This document shows positions 4,769-21,137 of a stretch of 21,307 nt of DNA, piece by piece; positions within the stretch are counted from its first letter, which is position 1; each line of letters opens with the position of its first letter. The position numbers and the translations under genes are program-made. The DNA comes from a virus. The notes under the pieces were generated by a model that was not told where the DNA came from, searched no databases, and worked only from the letters and a program-made list of their open reading frames with translations. The DNA is taken from the IMG/VR virus record IMGVR_UViG_3300044641_007261, positions 1 through 21,307 of that record; one strand, 5' to 3'.

Positions 4769-5503
4769 ATGGCCACTCCTTTCTCCTATCGCCAGTACGC
4801 AGGGAACGGGGCAACGGCGACATTTTCTGTCCCGTTCCCCTACCTGCTCAAGGCGCACGTTCACCTTTACCTGGGATACGACATTCTTGATGGCACCTTC
4901 ACCAGTGAACTGGCTGAAGGCGTTGGCTTCAGCTGGACCAGTGGCACGCAGGTGCAGTGTGTGGCGGCTCCAGCCGCTGGGCAGACGCTGACCGTTATTC
5001 GCTTGACCCCGAGCGGAACACGCCTGGTCGATTGGCAGGACGGCAGCAACCTGATCGCCGACGATCTCGATACCGCCGACCTGCAGAACCTGTACGTGGT
5101 GCAGGAACAGCAGGACCGGAACGACGCGGCGATCGCCGCCGGGGCGTCGGCCGCCACTGCATCGGCAGCGGCAGCAGCCGCGGCAGCAGCGTCATCCAGC
5201 GCTGCAATCACCACGGCAAACCAGGCACTGGCCGCGGCAAGCGGCGTGGCCGGCAGCGCGGCGAGCGCGGCGCAGGCAGCGCAACTGGCCATCCAGTACG
5301 CCTTCGGGACAAGCCCGGCCGTTATCCGGCCGATCGCGGGGCTGGAGATGCTGCTGATCCCAGAAAACGCTGCCTTCAGCGTTGGCAAGCCAGGCCAGAT
5401 CCCGTTTGGGGTTGGCCCAGTCCTTCCGCCTGGCGCCGCGTTCTCCGGCATCAACCGGAGTGACTACTTCCCCATTCATCACGCATCCGGGAGCTTCGTC
5501 TGA
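4769..5503 (+). CDS. Tail fibre protein with T7 gp17-type N-terminal domain
   Basis: 244 aa. Residues 1-115 match the T7 tail-fibre N-terminal pattern (virion attachment): start MATPFSYRQYAGNG, then FSVPFPYL near 20, a beta-rich stretch, TLTVIRLTP near 74 and a DLDTADLQNLYVVQEQQD helix near 92-110. Residues 115-175 are an Ala/Ser-rich low-complexity helix, probably a trimeric coiled-coil shaft. The C-terminal 44 residues form a module (GKPGQ.PFGVGP...PPG.AF...SGSF) shared with the protein at 5948-6343. The fibre is much shorter than T7 gp17 (553 aa), so receptor contact is probably passed to downstream partner proteins, as in phages with short adaptor fibres. The stop overlaps the next start (TGATG). 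The fold assignment is strong; the adaptor role is inferred. Confidence 0.88.
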   Translation: MATPFSYRQYAGNGATATFSVPFPYLLKAHVHLYLGYDILDGTFTSELAEGVGFSWTSGTQVQCVAAPAAGQTLTVIRLTPSGTRLVDWQDGSNLIADDLDTADLQNLYVVQEQQDRNDAAIAAGASAATASAAAAAAAAASSSAAITTANQALAAASGVAGSAASAAQAAQLAIQYAFGTSPAVIRPIAGLEMLLIPENAAFSVGKPGQIPFGVGPVLPPGAAFSGINRSDYFPIHHASGSFV

Positions 5504-5699: not shown

Positions 5700-5951
5700 A
5701 TGCCCAACTTCGCATTTAACCCATTCAACGGTCAGCTGATTCCTGCCCTTCAAGGGCCGCCTGGGCCGCAGGGCCCTCCCGGCGACACGTCAGGAGTTGT
5801 TGGTCCCCAAGGGCCACCAGGAGATCCATGGGCTGGCTTGCTTGACCTCGGATCTCCATCCACAAACAACGGCTGGATTTTCGATTTCGGAGGCCCTTCC
5901 AATGCAACAAGCGGTGTTCTCATCTTCGACTGCGGAGGCGTAGTCCAATGA
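5700..5951 (+). CDS. Collagen-like tail protein (83 aa)
   Basis: After an N-terminal peptide of about 16 residues the protein has a Gly-X-Y tract (GPPGPQGPPGD, a short break, then GPQGPPGDP) at residues 19-43, followed by a C-terminal domain of about 40 residues rich in Gly and aromatic residues (NNGWIFDFGGPSN, then LIFDCGGVV). Collagen-like tracts in phage fibres form triple-helical trimeric rods, so this is likely a trimeric structural or adaptor protein. The stop overlaps the next ATG as ATGA at 5948-5951, a strong sign of coupled translation. Confidence 0.75.
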   Translation: MPNFAFNPFNGQLIPALQGPPGPQGPPGDTSGVVGPQGPPGDPWAGLLDLGSPSTNNGWIFDFGGPSNATSGVLIFDCGGVVQ

Positions 5952-6343
5952 CAGTTCGAGCTCAATTCCGGCGCGGTACTGCTGGCGAATGGTCGGCAGT
6001 GAATCCGGTTCTTGCTATTGGCGAGCCTGGGTATGAAACCGACACCGGCAAGTTCAAGGTTGGCAATGGTTCCTCGGGTTGGAACGCACTGCCTTATGCG
6101 TCCGGCCTGACCGGACCTCAAGGGAACCCTGGCCCTCAGGGTCCCCAGGGCGCACCGGGTAGCACCGGTTCGCTGCTGCTGGATGAGCTGACTGCGATCT
6201 ATCGCAACGGCTCGTTCTCGGTTGGCACGCCTGGCCAGGTGCCCTTTGGCGTTGGCCCTGTCACGCCTCCCGGCACGGCGTTTCACTCCATCAGTGCAGA
6301 CGCCTACAACCCCGTCCACCTTCCGTCAGGGAGCTTCTGCTGA
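5948..6343 (+). CDS. Tail protein: Mtd-N-like domain + collagen-like stalk + shared C-terminal module (131 aa)
   Basis: Residues 1-52 (MTVRAQFRRGTAGEWSAVNP, then LAIGEPGYETDTGKFKVGNG and GWNALPY) match the short N-terminal fold common in phage fibres and adhesins, including the family named after the Bordetella phage tropism determinant Mtd (pattern 'RRGT..eW...NPvLa.GE.G.E.DTgk.K.GdG...W..L'). Residues 56-73 are a Gly-X-Y tract (GPQGNPGPQGPQGAPGS). The last 44 residues are the same module that ends the tail fibre at 4769-5503 (27 of 44 residues identical). Likely a trimeric tail or fibre adaptor. It overlaps its upstream (ATGA) and downstream (TGATG) neighbours. The domain assignment is from memory of family patterns. 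Confidence 0.78.
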   Translation: MTVRAQFRRGTAGEWSAVNPVLAIGEPGYETDTGKFKVGNGSSGWNALPYASGLTGPQGNPGPQGPQGAPGSTGSLLLDELTAIYRNGSFSVGTPGQVPFGVGPVTPPGTAFHSISADAYNPVHLPSGSFC

Positions 6344-6795: not shown

Positions 6796-8328
6796 ATGAC
6801 TGTCATCACACCATTGCTCCGCGTCAAGGAGCGCATCGTTGGCCCTTCGGGGTTCTTCGGTATCGAGAACGAGTGGTACGGCTACCGCGATCAGTGGCGC
6901 TTCACTGTTGGCCTGGCCGGCATGAGCGGCTTCGGCATCGGCTGCTGCCCGCCTGAACTGCTGCCCGCTGACTTTGCACCCCTAAGCAGCGGCACCTATG
7001 ACCCGCTGCGCGAGCACCCCCACTTCGGGAACTACATCCACATCCCGAGTGCCTCGATCGTGTGCTTTATCCCAGCGCACTACATCGAGGTGAGCGCACC
7101 GGGTAACACCAACGCGCCCACCTACGGCACCAAGATCACGATCAGCGACACGCAGACCGGCAACGCCCGCCTGCCTCAGGCCTTCACCGACTCCGGCTCC
7201 AGCCTAATCGGTGTGTTCGTGGACAAGTACCAGATCTCCAACGGCAAGCCCGATGGCTCTGGCTCCCCGAACCACACCAGCGGCCCCGGCGGCACCCCGC
7301 TCACCGGCGGCATTGCTGTGTCGCGCCCCCTGCACTGGCCCGTCAGCCCCACCACCAAGGACGACGGCGGCACCGACTGGAACAGCCCCTTCAGCCTGGT
7401 GAACAGCACTGCGCTGAACACCGCGGCCACCACCCCTGCCAACAACCTCGGCGGCGTGTGGGCCCTGGTGAAGACCCGCGGCGCCGACTTCGCCCCCTGC
7501 CCGATCTGGATCCGCAGCCAGATCGCCTTCCTGTCGCTGGCCCATGCCCAGGCCCTGCTCGACAGCAGCGGTGCTGCCATCTCCGGCGCCACCCAGAAGG
7601 CGGCCTGGATGGACGTGGCTCCCTTTGCCCCCAAGGGGAACAACAACAACGGCAGCGACGTCAACAAGTCGAGCCTGCAGTTCGCCCGCACTGATCTAAC
7701 CGGCCACAACGGCTCTGGCTTTGCTGGTCGCAGCAGCCGCGCCTTCACCGGTGCTGCGCAGATCAGCGGTGCGCCAGCTGTTGAGCACACCACCCACAAC
7801 GGCCAGCTCAGCGGCATCGTGGACATCCAGGGCAACCAGTGGGAGATCGCCGCTGGTCTGACCAACTCGGATGGCACCGACGCGGGCTACAAGCTGTTCC
7901 CCAGCTCTGGCGATTGGACCGCCACCACCGGCAACGCCTCGATCACAAGCGCCACCGGCGTGCTGTCCTTGGCCGCCGAGAGCGCAGGCGACGACGGGAT
8001 CTGGTGGGGTGCCGACGGATGGGCCTACCTGGTGCCCCACACCGGTGGCACCTTCCACCCCTCCAGCGGCTTCTCCAACGCCACCAAGCGGGCGATGACG
8101 GAGTGCCTGCTGCCTCGGGAGCTGGGCACCAGCGCAACGCAGACGAGCACCAACCACTTCGGTGGGGATGGCTTCTACCGGGCGAACGCCAACGGCCTGC
8201 TGCCGCTTGTTGGGGGCTCCTGGGTCAACACGGCCGTTGCCGGTGTGTTCAGCGTGGCTCTCGACGCCGCATCCAGCGACGCGTACGCCGGCGGTGGGGC
8301 GCGTGCCGTCCGCCTTCTGGCTGCGTGA
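6796..8328 (+). CDS. DGR target: variable surface protein with C-type-lectin / FGE-like fold (510 aa)
   Basis: Residues 1-100 form a unique N-terminal region (FGIENEWYGYRDQW), likely for attachment to the tail. From about residue 130 the protein shows the formylglycine-generating-enzyme / C-type-lectin layout typical of DGR targets: IGVFVDKYQISNG near 135-147, IAFLSLAHAQALLD near 240, HNGQLSGIVDIQGNQWEIA near 334-352, and DGFYRANANG just before the variable end. Residues 468-507 are the variable repeat, ending GARAVRL as in many DGR targets. The stop lies 12 bases before a perfect hairpin and overlaps the GTG proposed to start avd. Expected role: a phage tail receptor-binding protein whose ligand surface is rewritten by the retroelement. 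The DGR logic is strong; the receptor function is inferred from the tail-gene context and the family. Confidence 0.93.
   Translation: MTVITPLLRVKERIVGPSGFFGIENEWYGYRDQWRFTVGLAGMSGFGIGCCPPELLPADFAPLSSGTYDPLREHPHFGNYIHIPSASIVCFIPAHYIEVSAPGNTNAPTYGTKITISDTQTGNARLPQAFTDSGSSLIGVFVDKYQISNGKPDGSGSPNHTSGPGGTPLTGGIAVSRPLHWPVSPTTKDDGGTDWNSPFSLVNSTALNTAATTPANNLGGVWALVKTRGADFAPCPIWIRSQIAFLSLAHAQALLDSSGAAISGATQKAAWMDVAPFAPKGNNNNGSDVNKSSLQFARTDLTGHNGSGFAGRSSRAFTGAAQISGAPAVEHTTHNGQLSGIVDIQGNQWEIAAGLTNSDGTDAGYKLFPSSGDWTATTGNASITSATGVLSLAAESAGDDGIWWGADGWAYLVPHTGGTFHPSSGFSNATKRAMTECLLPRELGTSATQTSTNHFGGDGFYRANANGLLPLVGGSWVNTAVAGVFSVALDAASSDAYAGGGARAVRLLAA
8198..8317 (+). repeat. DGR variable repeat (VR)
   Basis: This segment aligns without gaps to the template repeat 8762-8881 (offset 564). 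Of 120 positions 97 are identical and 23 differ; all 23 differences are adenines in the template (12 to G, 6 to C, 5 to T). The 88 non-adenine template positions are all conserved. It encodes the last 40 or so residues of the target gene. The final invariant G/C-rich stretch 8295-8312 corresponds to the initiation-of-mutagenic-homing region of known DGRs. Confidence 0.97.
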
Positions 8329-8759
8329 GCAGCCATGTGGGGCCCGCGGCAGCGGGCCTTCCCTCTGACGCCACCCCGCCGGAAGAACAGGCCCTGGGCC
8401 TCGACCGCCGGCGGGAGCGTTATTGGCTCATTGAGCGGCGCTGCAAAGACCTCTGCCTCTACCTGGATGTTCTCACCAGGAACATGCCGAGGTATGAGAA
8501 GTACGTCCTCAGTGCCAAGATGCGTGAGATCGGGTATCTCTGTCTGGAGTTGGCCATTGCCGCCAACAAGAAACAGCACAAGAAGACCGATCTCACACGC
8601 TTCAATGTGCAGCACGAGTTCCTCCGCCAGCTGCTCAACCTGGCAGTGGAGGCTAAGTTCATCGAGCCCAGGCGACACCGCGTTGCCTGCGAAAAGCTCG
8701 ACGAAGTAGGCAAGCTCCTGGGGGGATGGCTACGCTCTGAACTCAGGGCGGACTCCTGA
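8325..8759 (+). CDS. avd: DGR accessory variability determinant (Avd), four-helix bundle
   Basis: 144 aa if started at GTG 8325, whose bases overlap the target's TGA (GTGA); GTG 8337 is the alternative. No ATG occurs before the conserved first helix, so a GTG start is required. The protein has the Avd pattern: a first helix around ERYWLIERRCKDLCLYLDVL, a loop PRYEKYVL, a second helix KMREIGYLCLELAIAANKK, a third from RFNVQHEFLRQLLNLAVEA and a fourth ending VGKLLGGWLRSEL (compare the VGRILGSW ending of the Bordetella phage Avd, from memory). It is strongly basic, as expected for binding the template RNA. Avd forms a pentameric barrel with the reverse transcriptase and is needed for mutagenic cDNA synthesis. 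Its place between VR and TR is the usual one. Confidence 0.87.
   Translation: MSSHVGPAAAGLPSDATPPEEQALGLDRRRERYWLIERRCKDLCLYLDVLTRNMPRYEKYVLSAKMREIGYLCLELAIAANKKQHKKTDLTRFNVQHEFLRQLLNLAVEAKFIEPRRHRVACEKLDEVGKLLGGWLRSELRADS
8341..8358 (+). promoter_or_regulatory. Perfect 7-bp hairpin with 4-base loop just after the VR (DGR target-recognition hairpin)
   Basis: GGCCCGC (8341-8347), loop GGCA, GCGGGCC (8352-8358) form a perfect inverted repeat 24 bases after the VR and 12 after the target stop codon. In Bordetella and other DGRs a hairpin or cruciform with a tetraloop directly behind the VR is required for efficient retrohoming into the target site. It could also slow transcription, but no T-run follows. 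Under the GTG 8325 start it also lies inside avd. Confidence 0.75.
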
Positions 8760-8761
8760 CA

Positions 8762-8881
8762 TGCTGCCGAATGTTGGGGGCAACTGGGACAACACGGCCA
8801 ATGCCGGTGTGTTCAACGTGAATCTCAACAACACATCCAGCAACGCGAACAACAACAATGGGGCGCGTGCCGTCCGACTTC
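8762..8881 (+). repeat. DGR template repeat (TR)
   Basis: This is the source copy of the variable repeat; it may begin a few bases earlier (8758), since 8759 and 8761 also fit an adenine-only difference. It contains 32 adenines, mostly as the first two bases of AAC/AAT codons in the target's frame, so that mutagenesis can reach many amino acids. It lies 2 bases after the avd stop and 135 bases before the reverse transcriptase start. The small open frame starting at 8761 is a by-product of being a copy of a coding sequence. Confidence 0.97.
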
Positions 8882-9016
8882 GACACAATCACGCCCAGCG
8901 TCGGGCCTCACGTGGGACCGGCCGTGTCGTGTTGAAGGGAGGGAGTTCGTCCTTGAGCCCACTGGGCTCTCAATAGCCGGGGAAGGCGATTCCAGTAGCT
9001 CTGCGACCGTCTCGCC
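8762..9016 (+). ncRNA. Putative DGR template RNA (TR plus downstream spacer)
   Basis: In the Bordetella phage system the RNA template comprises the TR and roughly 140 bases of downstream spacer, which folds and primes its own cDNA. Here the spacer between TR and the reverse transcriptase is 135 bases with no convincing gene, and it contains a short hairpin (GAGCCC 8955-8960, loop ACT, GGGCTC 8964-8969). The RNA ends are not visible; the extent given is the minimum inferred from the known system. Confidence 0.55.
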
Positions 9017-10054
9017 ATGCCCCACAAACTCGGCAATCTGTGGCCCCAGATCGCCAGCTACGACGCGCTGCTGGACGCCTGGAAGGAAGTCAGAAGCGGC
9101 AAGGGCGACAAGCGGTTGATCCTCCAGTACGAGAGCAACCTGGCGGTCAACCTGTCGCACCTGGAAGCCAAGCTGCTGGACGGCAGGTATAAGCCACGGC
9201 CGCACTATGAGTTCTGGATCAAGGACCCAAAGCCCCGGCTGATCCAAGCGCCGTTCCTTGAGGATCGCATCGTGCAGCACGCCGTCTGCAACGTGCTGCG
9301 TGTGCCCCTGCAGCAGCGGTTAATCGCTCACACCTACAGCTGCCTGATTGGCCGCGGCACCCATCGCTGCAGCCAGCAGTTTCATGCCTATCTGAAGAAC
9401 AGGCGGTTCAAGTATTACCTCAGCCTGGACATCAGCAAGTTCTTTTACAGCATTAACCACGAAGCGCTCTATGCCGAGATGTGCCGTCACATCAAGTGCA
9501 AGCCCACGCTTGCTTTGTTGTGGCGCTACATCACGGTGAACGGCGGCGACTGCGGCATCCCCATCGGCGCGAGCACCAGCCAGATCATGGCCAACATGGC
9601 GCTCAACCCCCTCGATCACTTCGCCCGGCGCGAGCTGAAGCTCAACACCTACCTGCGCTACTGCGACGACATGATCGCCCTGTTCGAGGCCGCGGAGGCC
9701 GCCCACGCTGCTCACCAGGCGATGGCGCAGAAGGTGGAGGAGCTGGGCATGAGGCTCAACAACAAGAGCGGTGTGGGCTGGGTGGATGACGGCGTGGACT
9801 GGGTTGGCTACCGCCACTGGCGCACCTACAAGCTGATCCGCAAGCGCTCGCTCAAACGCCTGAAGCGCAAGGCCGCGGCGGGCTGCAGCCTGGAGACGAC
9901 CATGGCCTACCTCAGCCACGCCAAGGACACGGCAAGCCTGCGGTATGTGAGGCAGCTGCTTTGGCGCTGCAATCCTGAACACCGCCCAGAGATCTACGCC
10001 TGGATTTGCCGGCACAGGTCAGCTCGTTACTGTGCAGGGGTGAAGACGTCTTAG
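9017..10054 (+). CDS. DGR reverse transcriptase (345 aa)
   Basis: It copies the template RNA into adenine-mutagenised cDNA. Visible motifs: RT domain LSLDISKFF (residues 136-143, catalytic Asp138), GIPIGASTSQ (180-189), which is the DGR-specific [I/L/V]GxxxSQ form instead of the QGxxxSP of other retroelement enzymes, and the active-site YCDD (215-218). A basic C-terminal thumb follows (KLIRKRSLKRLKRK near 272-285). No maturase, endonuclease or protease domain is present, and the length is typical of stand-alone DGR enzymes. No clear Shine-Dalgarno sequence precedes the ATG. It ends one base before the GTG of the next small gene. The assignment is firm because TR, VR and avd are all alongside. 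Confidence 0.97.
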   Translation: MPHKLGNLWPQIASYDALLDAWKEVRSGKGDKRLILQYESNLAVNLSHLEAKLLDGRYKPRPHYEFWIKDPKPRLIQAPFLEDRIVQHAVCNVLRVPLQQRLIAHTYSCLIGRGTHRCSQQFHAYLKNRRFKYYLSLDISKFFYSINHEALYAEMCRHIKCKPTLALLWRYITVNGGDCGIPIGASTSQIMANMALNPLDHFARRELKLNTYLRYCDDMIALFEAAEAAHAAHQAMAQKVEELGMRLNNKSGVGWVDDGVDWVGYRHWRTYKLIRKRSLKRLKRKAAAGCSLETTMAYLSHAKDTASLRYVRQLLWRCNPEHRPEIYAWICRHRSARYCAGVKTS

Positions 10055-11876: not shown

Positions 11877-12866
11877 TCATCCCTCGAGCGCTGCCACACA
11901 CGCTGCAAGAGCATCGGTCTGCAGGTGCAGGTAGCGCTGCACAGAGGCCAGCGACGTCCACCCGCCGAAGCTCATCAACTGGTGCAGGGGGATGCCGCGG
12001 GCAGCCAGCTTGCTGGCGCAGGTGTGGCGCGTGGTGTGCACCGACAGTGCCTCATCCTCACCGCAGCCGATCGCTTCCTTGGCCTTCTGGAACAGGCGCT
12101 GAAACTCCCAGTAGCGGTAGGAGAACACGGTCTGCCGGCGAACAGCAGGGATGTGGGGCTCGAGAGCTTGCACGGCTCGGGCCGTGAGTGGGACCGATCG
12201 GGTCCGGTTGGCTTTGGTTTCGGAGAACGTGACCTTTCTGTTCACCAGGTCCACGTCCTCGCCACGCAGGCGCTCGACCTCGCCCCAGCGGGCGCAGGAC
12301 TCGAGCAGAAACACCAGGCAGTCGGCCGCGGCGGCATGGCCGATGCTCACCAGGTAGTGGCACATGCCATCGCGTTCTTCATCGCTGATCACCCGGTCCT
12401 TGGTGTTCTTGAGCTTCAGCTGTTTCGGGAACTGGGGTGTGGTGGTGATGTGCCCGCGCAGCTGGGCATCGGAGAACATGGCCCGCAGCGCTGACACCTT
12501 CTTGTTGACGGTGGCTGGGCGGTTGCCCGAAGCCAGCAGATGGCGCCGCCAGGCGTCGATCTGAGGGGTGCTGATGTCGGTCAGCAGGGTGTTGGCGCCG
12601 AAGTAGTCGACAGCGGCCTGGCTGTAGAGGCCGGCGGTGCGTTCAGAGCTGCAGCCACGCCAGCGAACATCCATCGACAGGCGGCGTGCATCCTGCAGCG
12701 AGAACAGGGGCAGCGGGCTGGCTTCCTTGTGCAGCAGCAGCTCGAGCAGCTCACGCTTGCGGCCCAGGGCCTCCTGTTTGGTCTTGCAGAGAGCGGTCTT
12801 GCGTTGGCCAGCAACGGTCACATCAGCGACCCAGCCGGTGGGTGTGCGGCGAACAGAGCCAGACAT
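11877..12866 (-). CDS. int: Tyrosine recombinase (phage integrase, 329 aa)
   Basis: Residues 1-50 form a small N-terminal arm-binding-type domain, 70-145 a SAM-like core-binding domain (ISTPQIDAWRRHLLASGN), and 155-320 the catalytic domain. The full catalytic set is visible: Arg193 (ARWGEVERL), Lys218 (ETKANRTRSVPL beta-hairpin), His277 and Arg280 (HTTRH), Trp303 in the His/Trp position (GGWTSLASVQ) and the nucleophile Tyr312 (RYLHL). It would integrate and excise the phage genome. The start ATG 12866 is preceded by the C/A-rich leader (12873-12885) instead of a Shine-Dalgarno. No attachment site core could be identified without the host sequence. Confidence 0.93.
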   Translation of the reverse strand: MSGSVRRTPTGWVADVTVAGQRKTALCKTKQEALGRKRELLELLLHKEASPLPLFSLQDARRLSMDVRWRGCSSERTAGLYSQAAVDYFGANTLLTDISTPQIDAWRRHLLASGNRPATVNKKVSALRAMFSDAQLRGHITTTPQFPKQLKLKNTKDRVISDEERDGMCHYLVSIGHAAAADCLVFLLESCARWGEVERLRGEDVDLVNRKVTFSETKANRTRSVPLTARAVQALEPHIPAVRRQTVFSYRYWEFQRLFQKAKEAIGCGEDEALSVHTTRHTCASKLAARGIPLHQLMSFGGWTSLASVQRYLHLQTDALAACVAALEG

Positions 12867-19192: not shown

Positions 19193-19362
19193 TGGAACCG
19201 TGCATGACGGTGCAAGCGCTTGAAGACGGCTGCTGCCGGGTGCGTTTGCAGCAAGGCCCCTATTCAGTGAGCTGCACCGTGTCATCCATGCACCTGGTGG
19301 AAGACAAGCGCTCGCAGTTGCTGCGGGCCTTGCAGGCAATGCAACAGGAACAGCAGGAATGA
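19192..19362 (+). CDS. Tiny protein directly upstream of and overlapping terL (56 aa)
   Basis: ATG 19192 overlaps the upstream stop (TGATG), and its own TGA overlaps the terminase ATG (ATGA, 19359-19362). The protein has a beta-rich, Cys-containing first half (VQALEDGCCRVRLQQGPYSVSCTVSS) and a C-terminal Gln-rich helix (QLLRALQAMQQEQQE). The place is that of T7 gene 18 (small terminase), but the protein is shorter than gp18 (89 aa) and shows no clear DNA-binding motif. Real because both junctions are coupled. Confidence 0.62.
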   Translation: MEPCMTVQALEDGCCRVRLQQGPYSVSCTVSSMHLVEDKRSQLLRALQAMQQEQQE

Positions 19363-21137
19363 ACTGGGAGCCACTTCCTGAGCAGCTCGAGCCGTTGGCT
19401 CATTTCGCCTGCTACATCCTCCGTGAGTTGAACCTGGCGGATACGCCAACCAAGCAACAACTAGGCATCCTGCGTTATCTCGAGGGTGGCCCGGACCGCC
19501 AGATCATCACGGCCTACCGGGGTTGCGGGAAGTCCACCCTCACCGGCATCTATGCGCTGTGGCGGCTGCGGCGTGACCCCTTCAGGGAGAAGATCCTGCT
19601 GGTGGGTGCCACGGCTGACAAGGCGGTGGAGATCAGCAACTGGATGCTGCGCCTGGTGCGCGACATCGACATCCTCCAATGCCTGCAGCCGGAGACCGAT
19701 GGCCGCAGCTCGGTGCAGGCATGGGACGTGGGGCCGGCGATCGTTGATCAGAGCCCGAGTGTCCGCGCTGTGGGAATCCTGTCCCCATCGCTCACCGGCA
19801 AGCGGTGTACCTGCGCGATCGCAGACGACATTGAGACGTTGGCCAACTCGATCACACCCCTGAAGCAGGAGCGGCTGGCCGCGGCCATCACCGAACTGGA
19901 GGCGATCAGGAAGCCGGAGGTTGAGGGGGAACTGCCAAAGCAGACGATCTTCCTGGGCACCCCGCACCTGGAGTCAAGCCTCTACCTGCGAATGAGGAGG
20001 GAGAGGAACTATCAGCAGCGGTTCTGGCCGGCGCGGTATCCCAACCCGGGGCAGGAGGACGAGTGGGATTGCTACGAGGGCTGCCTTGATCCGCTGATCG
20101 CTGCCGAGGTGGAAGAAGACGGCAGCCGCTCGGGAGAGCCGACCGACCCTGAGCGCTTCGGCCACGACGAGCTGCTGCGCCGCGAGATGTCCATGACCCG
20201 GGCATCTGTGCAGCTGCAGTTCCAGCTGAACTGCCGTCTGTCGACCCTCGATCGCTACCCCATCCGACTCGGTGATCTGATCGTGATGGATCTCGACGGC
20301 AAGGCCCTGCCCGAGGTGGTGAGCTGGGCATCAGGGCCCGATCAGCGCATCCAGGACCTGGTGTGCGTCGGCCTGGGCGCTGATCGCTACTACCACCGGC
20401 CGATGCTCACCCAGGGCTGGGTATCGCAGCAGGAGACGTGGCGCTGCGTGTTGTCGATCGACCCATCAGGCCGCGGCGCCGATGAACTGGCTTGGGCGGT
20501 GGTGGCCGAGCTCAACGGCAACCTGTTTGTGCTGGAGAGCGGCGGCACCACCCAGGGCTACGCGGAGGAGGTGTTGCGGCTGCTGGCCGAACGGGCTCGC
20601 CGCTGGGGCGTCAACCAGACCGTGGTGGAGAGCAACTTCGGCGACGGCATGTTCGAGGCGCTGCTGGCACCGGTGATGAACCGCGTGCACCCCAACCCGA
20701 TCGAACCGATCAAGGTGTCGATGCAGAAGGAGAGGCGCATCGTGGATGTGATCGCCCCGATCGTGCAGCAACACCGGCTGGTGATCAGCAGCGAGCTGAT
20801 CAGAAAGGACTACCGAGAGGCCGAGCGCAACGCCGACAATGGCCACCAGCGTTCACTGATGTACCAGCTGAGCCGCATCACGACGGAACGTGGGGCCCTG
20901 GTCCACGACGACCGGATAGACGCGCTGGCGCTGGCGCTGCAGTTCTTCACTGAGGCCGCTGCCCAGGATCAGCGCAAGGCCCAGGCCACCCGTCAGGAAG
21001 AGCTCGAGGAGATGGCGCGGCAAGCGTTCTTGGATGAAGCAGGGGCCAGTATCGACCAGCTGGCCCTTGGGCTTAGGCCGACTGCTCGCGGTCGGGCGTG
21101 GGGCGGGGTGAAGCGTCCAGCTGTTGGGGCGGTCTGA
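19359..21137 (+). CDS. terL: Terminase large subunit, T7 gp19-type (592 aa)
   Basis: DNA-packaging motor and nuclease. The ATPase domain shows Walker A YRGCGKST (53-60), a sensor-like LLVGATADKA (80-89), VGPA...SPSVRAVGI (124-140) and Walker B IADDIE (154-159); the coupling region is TIFLGTPHLESSLY. The RNase H-like nuclease domain shows Asp368 in SIDPSGRGADE, Glu424 in VVESNFGDGMFE and Asp517/Asp518/Asp521 in VHDDRIDALAL. Length and motif order match T7 gp19 (586 aa) throughout, including PVMN...HRLVI..E.IRKDY near the end. The start overlaps the upstream stop. Its 3' end overlaps a convergent gene by 65 bases. Confidence 0.97.
   Translation: MNWEPLPEQLEPLAHFACYILRELNLADTPTKQQLGILRYLEGGPDRQIITAYRGCGKSTLTGIYALWRLRRDPFREKILLVGATADKAVEISNWMLRLVRDIDILQCLQPETDGRSSVQAWDVGPAIVDQSPSVRAVGILSPSLTGKRCTCAIADDIETLANSITPLKQERLAAAITELEAIRKPEVEGELPKQTIFLGTPHLESSLYLRMRRERNYQQRFWPARYPNPGQEDEWDCYEGCLDPLIAAEVEEDGSRSGEPTDPERFGHDELLRREMSMTRASVQLQFQLNCRLSTLDRYPIRLGDLIVMDLDGKALPEVVSWASGPDQRIQDLVCVGLGADRYYHRPMLTQGWVSQQETWRCVLSIDPSGRGADELAWAVVAELNGNLFVLESGGTTQGYAEEVLRLLAERARRWGVNQTVVESNFGDGMFEALLAPVMNRVHPNPIEPIKVSMQKERRIVDVIAPIVQQHRLVISSELIRKDYREAERNADNGHQRSLMYQLSRITTERGALVHDDRIDALALALQFFTEAAAQDQRKAQATRQEELEEMARQAFLDEAGASIDQLALGLRPTARGRAWGGVKRPAVGAV

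Follow-up and report, generated by a model that had tools for sequence, protein, structure and literature searches.

The DNA analyzed here (the window) is a 21,307-base virus record from IMG/VR (IMGVR_UViG_3300044641_007261, positions 1 to 21,307). It carries the parts of a diversity-generating retroelement (DGR): a target gene with a variable repeat (VR), avd, a template repeat (TR), a spacer and a reverse transcriptase (RT). All of these are open and stand in canonical order (Table 1), so that the sequence-only reading, which had described a complete and intact DGR, is borne out. DGRs acting on phage tail proteins are textbook knowledge.

Table 1. Features of the DGR, its tail-gene neighborhood and the wider window
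Feature	Positions	Strand	Description
T7-type tail fiber N-terminal domain protein	4769..5503	+	244 aa; Pfam Phage_T7_tail, E 3e-25; start of tail-tip module
Small collagen-like protein	5700..5951	+	GPPGPQGPPG repeats (ORF and sequence); kept with the module in relatives
Mtd_N domain with collagen-like stretch, probable fiber adaptor	5948..6343	+	Pfam Mtd_N, E 4e-14
Target gene	6796..8328	+	510 aa, DGR target; open
VR (variable repeat)	8198..8317	+	repeat search, then recomputed
Hypervariable interval	8206..8294	+	first to last mutable adenine
IMH-like 3' end of VR	8295..8317	+	18 nt without template A, then fixed C (TR A) at 8313
Hairpin 1	8318..8335	+	TGGCTGC-GTGA-GCAGCCA; perfect stem, abuts VR
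avd (accessory variability determinant)	8325..8759	+	144 aa from GTG 8325
Hairpin 2	8341..8358	+	GGCCCGC-GGCA-GCGGGCC; 23 nt after VR, GRNA loop
TR (template repeat)	8762..8881	+	repeat search, then recomputed
Spacer between TR and RT	8882..9016	+	135 nt, structured, conserved
DGR reverse transcriptase	9017..10054	+	345 aa, IGASTSQ and YCDD
Tyrosine integrase (context)	11877..12866	-	Pfam Phage_integrase, E 9e-21
T7-type terminase large subunit (context)	19359..21137	+	Pfam E 9e-34; 69% to S-SRP02

The element resembles the BPP-1 DGR (mtd-avd-TR-brt) in many respects. In both, target, avd, TR, spacer and RT follow one another on one strand, the VR lies at the 3' end of the target, TR comes directly behind avd, and the RT belongs to the DGR clade. 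The spacer (135 nt here, 144 nt in BPP-1) and the distance from VR to a GRNA-loop hairpin (23 nt here, 19 nt in BPP-1) are also similar, and an Mtd_N domain is present, here in a neighboring tail gene. There are differences as well. The window RT is 39% identical to that of BPP-1 over 63% of its length; the target is not recognizably Mtd-like over its length, Mtd_N being encoded by a small gene of its own; the VR is directly followed by an extra hairpin, which holds the avd start; and the backbone is T7-like.

The RT motifs are of the [IVL]GxxxSQ and YCDD types, and the protein matches PHROG 1423 (E 1e-95). Its best solved relative is 8ub7 (E 3e-56), a 328-aa reverse transcriptase equal in length to BPP-1 brt. 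In our RT tree, a check that the sequence-only reading had called for, the window RT groups with DGR RTs, which split from group II intron RTs with a support of 100/99 over a small outgroup of three intron RTs. Motif, tree and profile together rule out a retron or group II intron RT. The RT is under purifying selection (dN/dS 0.09-0.20). The avd product matches Pfam bAvd (E 4e-23) and the PHROG 'Avd protein of DGR' (E 4e-27).

VR and TR, each 120 nt long, differ at 23 positions, every one of them among the 32 TR adenines (A>G 12, A>C 6, A>T 5, TR to VR); were mismatches random, such a pattern would have a p of about 1e-17. The non-adenine template positions are identical throughout (88/88), as expected of a VR that has been rewritten without drift, and adenine-confined TR/VR differences recur in relatives. 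The sequence-only reading had given the same count and the same confinement to adenines, and both stand, but one of the 23 differences is not due to mutagenesis. At 8313/8877 (TR A, VR C), each of the 17 VR alleles read has C (17/17, counting one in which a deletion of 3 nt shifts the position), so this is a fixed difference of the IMH/IMH* end. Of the 31 mutable adenines, 22 are changed in the window VR. The segment that closes the VR is IMH-like, a role that it would have by analogy to BPP-1. In the frame of the target, TR contains 13 AAY codons; 17 codons of the target are variable, giving up to about 5e17 reachable amino-acid combinations, and mutagenesis of TR adenines can reach no stop codon (0). 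The VRs of two relatives, L015 and L024, depart from the usual template length by an insertion or deletion of 3 nt.

The phage that bears this element has a T7-like backbone, as had been proposed from sequence. A second IMG/VR record, contig 3300034061_004858 (43,195 bp), shares 21,218 bases with the window, at 100% identity. This contig and seven others encode the single-subunit, T7-type RNA polymerase; its portal, capsid and tail-tube genes are T7-type by reading of the ORFs, and the terminase is also T7-type. The nearest isolate is Synechococcus phage S-SRP02 (MW822601; terminase 69%), which was isolated on Synechococcus SR-C1 and is classed in its record as Autographiviridae. Backbone and module order are common to the window phage, S-SRP02 and the marine Stopalavirus S38C3, including terminase, integrase, MarR regulator and a large virion protein, and S-SRP02 also has the endolysin. 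In contrast, neither S-SRP02 nor S38C3 has a match to the window RT, Avd or target, and in S-SRP02 other genes occupy the DGR locus. Kinship with S-SRP02 makes a cyanobacterial, specifically picocyanobacterial, host likely. The integrase and MarR-type regulator of the window phage are consistent with possible lysogeny. A single scan of species genomes, made with the RT profile, turned up no close integrated copy, only two distant RTs in Acidobacteriota and Pseudomonadota, so the host assignment continues to draw on kinship. A search for tRNA genes came back empty, and none of the tRNA-like matches stood out as a candidate attachment site.

Matching RTs occur in 144 deposited phage records, and among the 60 names listed from these there was no cyanophage and none that we recognized as T7-like. 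Bise, the only one of these RT-bearing phages inspected in full for tail genes, is contractile-tailed. Large metagenome surveys of DGRs exist (PMC8144416), and this survey may include contigs of the present kind. We found no earlier description of a DGR in a T7-like cyanophage in a literature search that took in cyanophages, Autographiviridae, T7-like and Synechococcus phages, drew mainly on openly available papers and was judged mostly from titles and abstracts. The DGR is known in kind; as far as that search reaches, the phage group is new for it, and the target site is a small variant.

We assessed the target protein by profile and by structure prediction. A profile of the target family matches PDB entry 5vf4, TaqVP (E 9e-7 and 8e-5), over the C-terminal third of the protein, including the VR region. 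TaqVP is the C-type lectin variable protein of a Thermus aquaticus prophage DGR (PMC6328139). AlphaFold models of the target had mean pLDDT values of 32 and 38 (from 15 and 31 sequences) and were unusable, so that the fold is judged from sequence. On this basis the C-terminal third probably adopts a C-type lectin fold related to that of TaqVP. At 510 aa, the window target differs from TaqVP in its long N-terminal part, which has no known relatives. Outside the VR the target is conserved (dN/dS about 0.07-0.25). It follows, as the sequence-only reading had noted, a T7-type tail fiber N-terminal domain and collagen-like ORFs, together with an Mtd_N domain; this arrangement points to a place at the tail tip and makes a receptor-binding role likely for the target. 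The proteins at 4769-5503 and 5948-6343 end in a common module of ~40 residues (PGQxPFGVGPVxPPGxAF...SGSF), perhaps an assembly or attachment element.

The tail-tip module has moved between phages. The backbone of relative L003 is 98-100% identical to that of the window, but its tail module is another one, with a target that is 85% identical. In L017 it is the DGR that is near-identical (avd 100%, RT 99%), on a different backbone; the two patterns together show that the module is swapped. The DGR has also been lost. In L072 (3630-3960), an in-frame deletion fuses Avd residue ~43 to RT residue ~276 and TR is gone; avd is truncated in L081; in L096 and others the target is present but the element is not; and L033 (4004-7194) and L094 have two tandem, diverged target copies at the locus and no element. 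The hairpins behind the VR are broken in L096, L085 and L090 and intact in L072, L081 and L088. Loss of the DGR in some close relatives implies that the element is not indispensable.

The BPP-1 DGR switches receptor classes, and the sequence-only reading had proposed that variation of the target switches host range here, as it may. We give equal weight to a narrower use of the same element, escape when receptors change inside a single host population, with no switching between strains or species. The host range of the nearest isolate, S-SRP02, is narrow (PMC8790148), static relatives without a DGR persist, and the target backbone is strongly conserved, all of which suit such escape; the receptor switching of BPP-1, achieved with the same kind of element, argues for host-range switching instead.

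Behind the VR, the earlier reading had seen one hairpin; a hairpin is indeed there, but it is one of two, and both covary (two covarying pairs in hairpin 1, three in hairpin 2). Across relatives, 99.4% of cells are paired, both sides have changed in 20 cells compared with 7.6 in shuffles, and slid registers come nowhere near the true one. A rule for phage DGR targets calls for a stem of 7-10 bp with a GRNA loop, 4-34 bp away (PMC3240598), and hairpin 2, with its GGCA loop, fits it. The RTGA loop of hairpin 1 is formed by the target stop overlapping the conserved avd start, which in the window is the GTG at 8325. In BPP-1, in Bise and in a sister group (L080, L082, L087), the hairpin seen is of the GRNA type or a variant of that type and has no companion, so that hairpin 1 seems to have been added in the window's DGR clade. 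The RNA of TR and spacer has a conserved consensus fold with 13 compensated pairs; an Rfam search of the window found nothing. A conserved stem (GGCGA...UCGCC, 8982-9019) ends right before the RT start codon and possibly limits RT translation. From these comparisons we tentatively propose, at slightly less than even odds, that a separate DGR clade resides in T7-like, integrase-bearing picocyanobacterial phages. Its target site would be modified by a second covarying hairpin that abuts the VR and whose loop is the target stop and avd start, combining a homing signal and avd translational coupling in one element, and its cassette would have been lost repeatedly, leaving static tip proteins.

To follow TR and VR across related genomes, we gathered relatives by RT, target and TR-pattern scans. 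Fifteen distinct VR alleles were found among the 17 read, against a nearly constant TR, which is the pattern that the sequence-only reading had named as proof of activity. One and the same 120-nt TR is present in the window, L017 and L020, whose VRs differ pairwise at 16-23 positions, every change falling at a TR adenine; no VR allele is common to any two of them. Lineage-specific changes at non-adenine TR positions recur in the lineage's own VR at 98 of 102 sites with duplicate contigs dropped (125/130 when the two duplicates are counted), as copying from TR to VR predicts. The targets of L005 and L017 are 97.8% identical outside the VR, where dN is 0.007; inside the VR it is 0.32. In L039 (5538-5661), the VR differs from its own TR at 12 non-adenine positions and resembles the VR of another lineage, a recombinant target not yet overwritten.

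The 43-kb contig gives a view of the population. Its first base corresponds to window base 8295 and its last to base 8205, which leaves it without the 89 bases 8206-8294, which are exactly those from the first to the last mutable adenine; its TR was assembled whole. The contig ends therefore stop where the population turns hypervariable, and mixed VR alleles on an otherwise uniform genome would explain the gap best. With two near repeats, VR and TR, lying 564 bp apart, and with assemblers prone to breaking at repeats, the gap could in principle be a repeat artefact and not allelic diversity. We consider this very unlikely, given that the longest exact stretch common to VR and TR is ~18 nt, that TR was assembled unbroken, that the gap edges fall exactly on the first and last mutable adenines and that the window was assembled through the same pair. 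We looked for a second VR on the 43-kb contig and found none. As population traces, the VR alleles and the exact assembly gap are strong evidence of what appears to be recent DGR activity. Slightly less probable still is an element that is intact but now silent, its VR alleles being old products spread by recombination without present homing: clear modular swapping in the tail region (as in L003), the foreign VR of L039 and the loss of the DGR in several relatives would suit it, but purifying selection is strong on the RT and on the target outside the VR, the assembly of a phage from another metagenome, 100% identical elsewhere, breaks off over exactly the mutable interval, and identical TR cores come with no VR allele in common.

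We thus favor, with a probability of about 94%, a functional DGR of the BPP-1 type that lies within the tail-tip module of a T7-like phage with an integrase and a probable picocyanobacterial host of the Synechococcus/Cyanobium type. The anatomy of the locus, the adenine-only divergence, the flow of information from TR to VR across relatives and the population-level diversity of the VR are shown by this analysis; the biochemical steps of homing, which we infer, are taken from BPP-1. By that analogy, the RT with Avd would reverse transcribe the TR-spacer RNA, misreading template adenines, and the mutated cDNA would replace the VR by homing from the A-poor IMH end, for which the DNA hairpins behind the VR would be needed. 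The outcome would be a highly variable C-type lectin-like tip protein, which may let the phage bind host surface receptors that have changed or are of another kind.

Receptors on freshwater picocyanobacteria, and their rapid change, lie at the heart of the arms race between these hosts and their phages. A group of phages whose receptor-binding protein has a programmed mutator, and whose close relatives include some that have lost it, would allow mutating and static phages to be compared on the same backbone. Its two hairpins and spacer RNA also provide naturally occurring data on the signals, in DNA and in RNA, of DGR homing.
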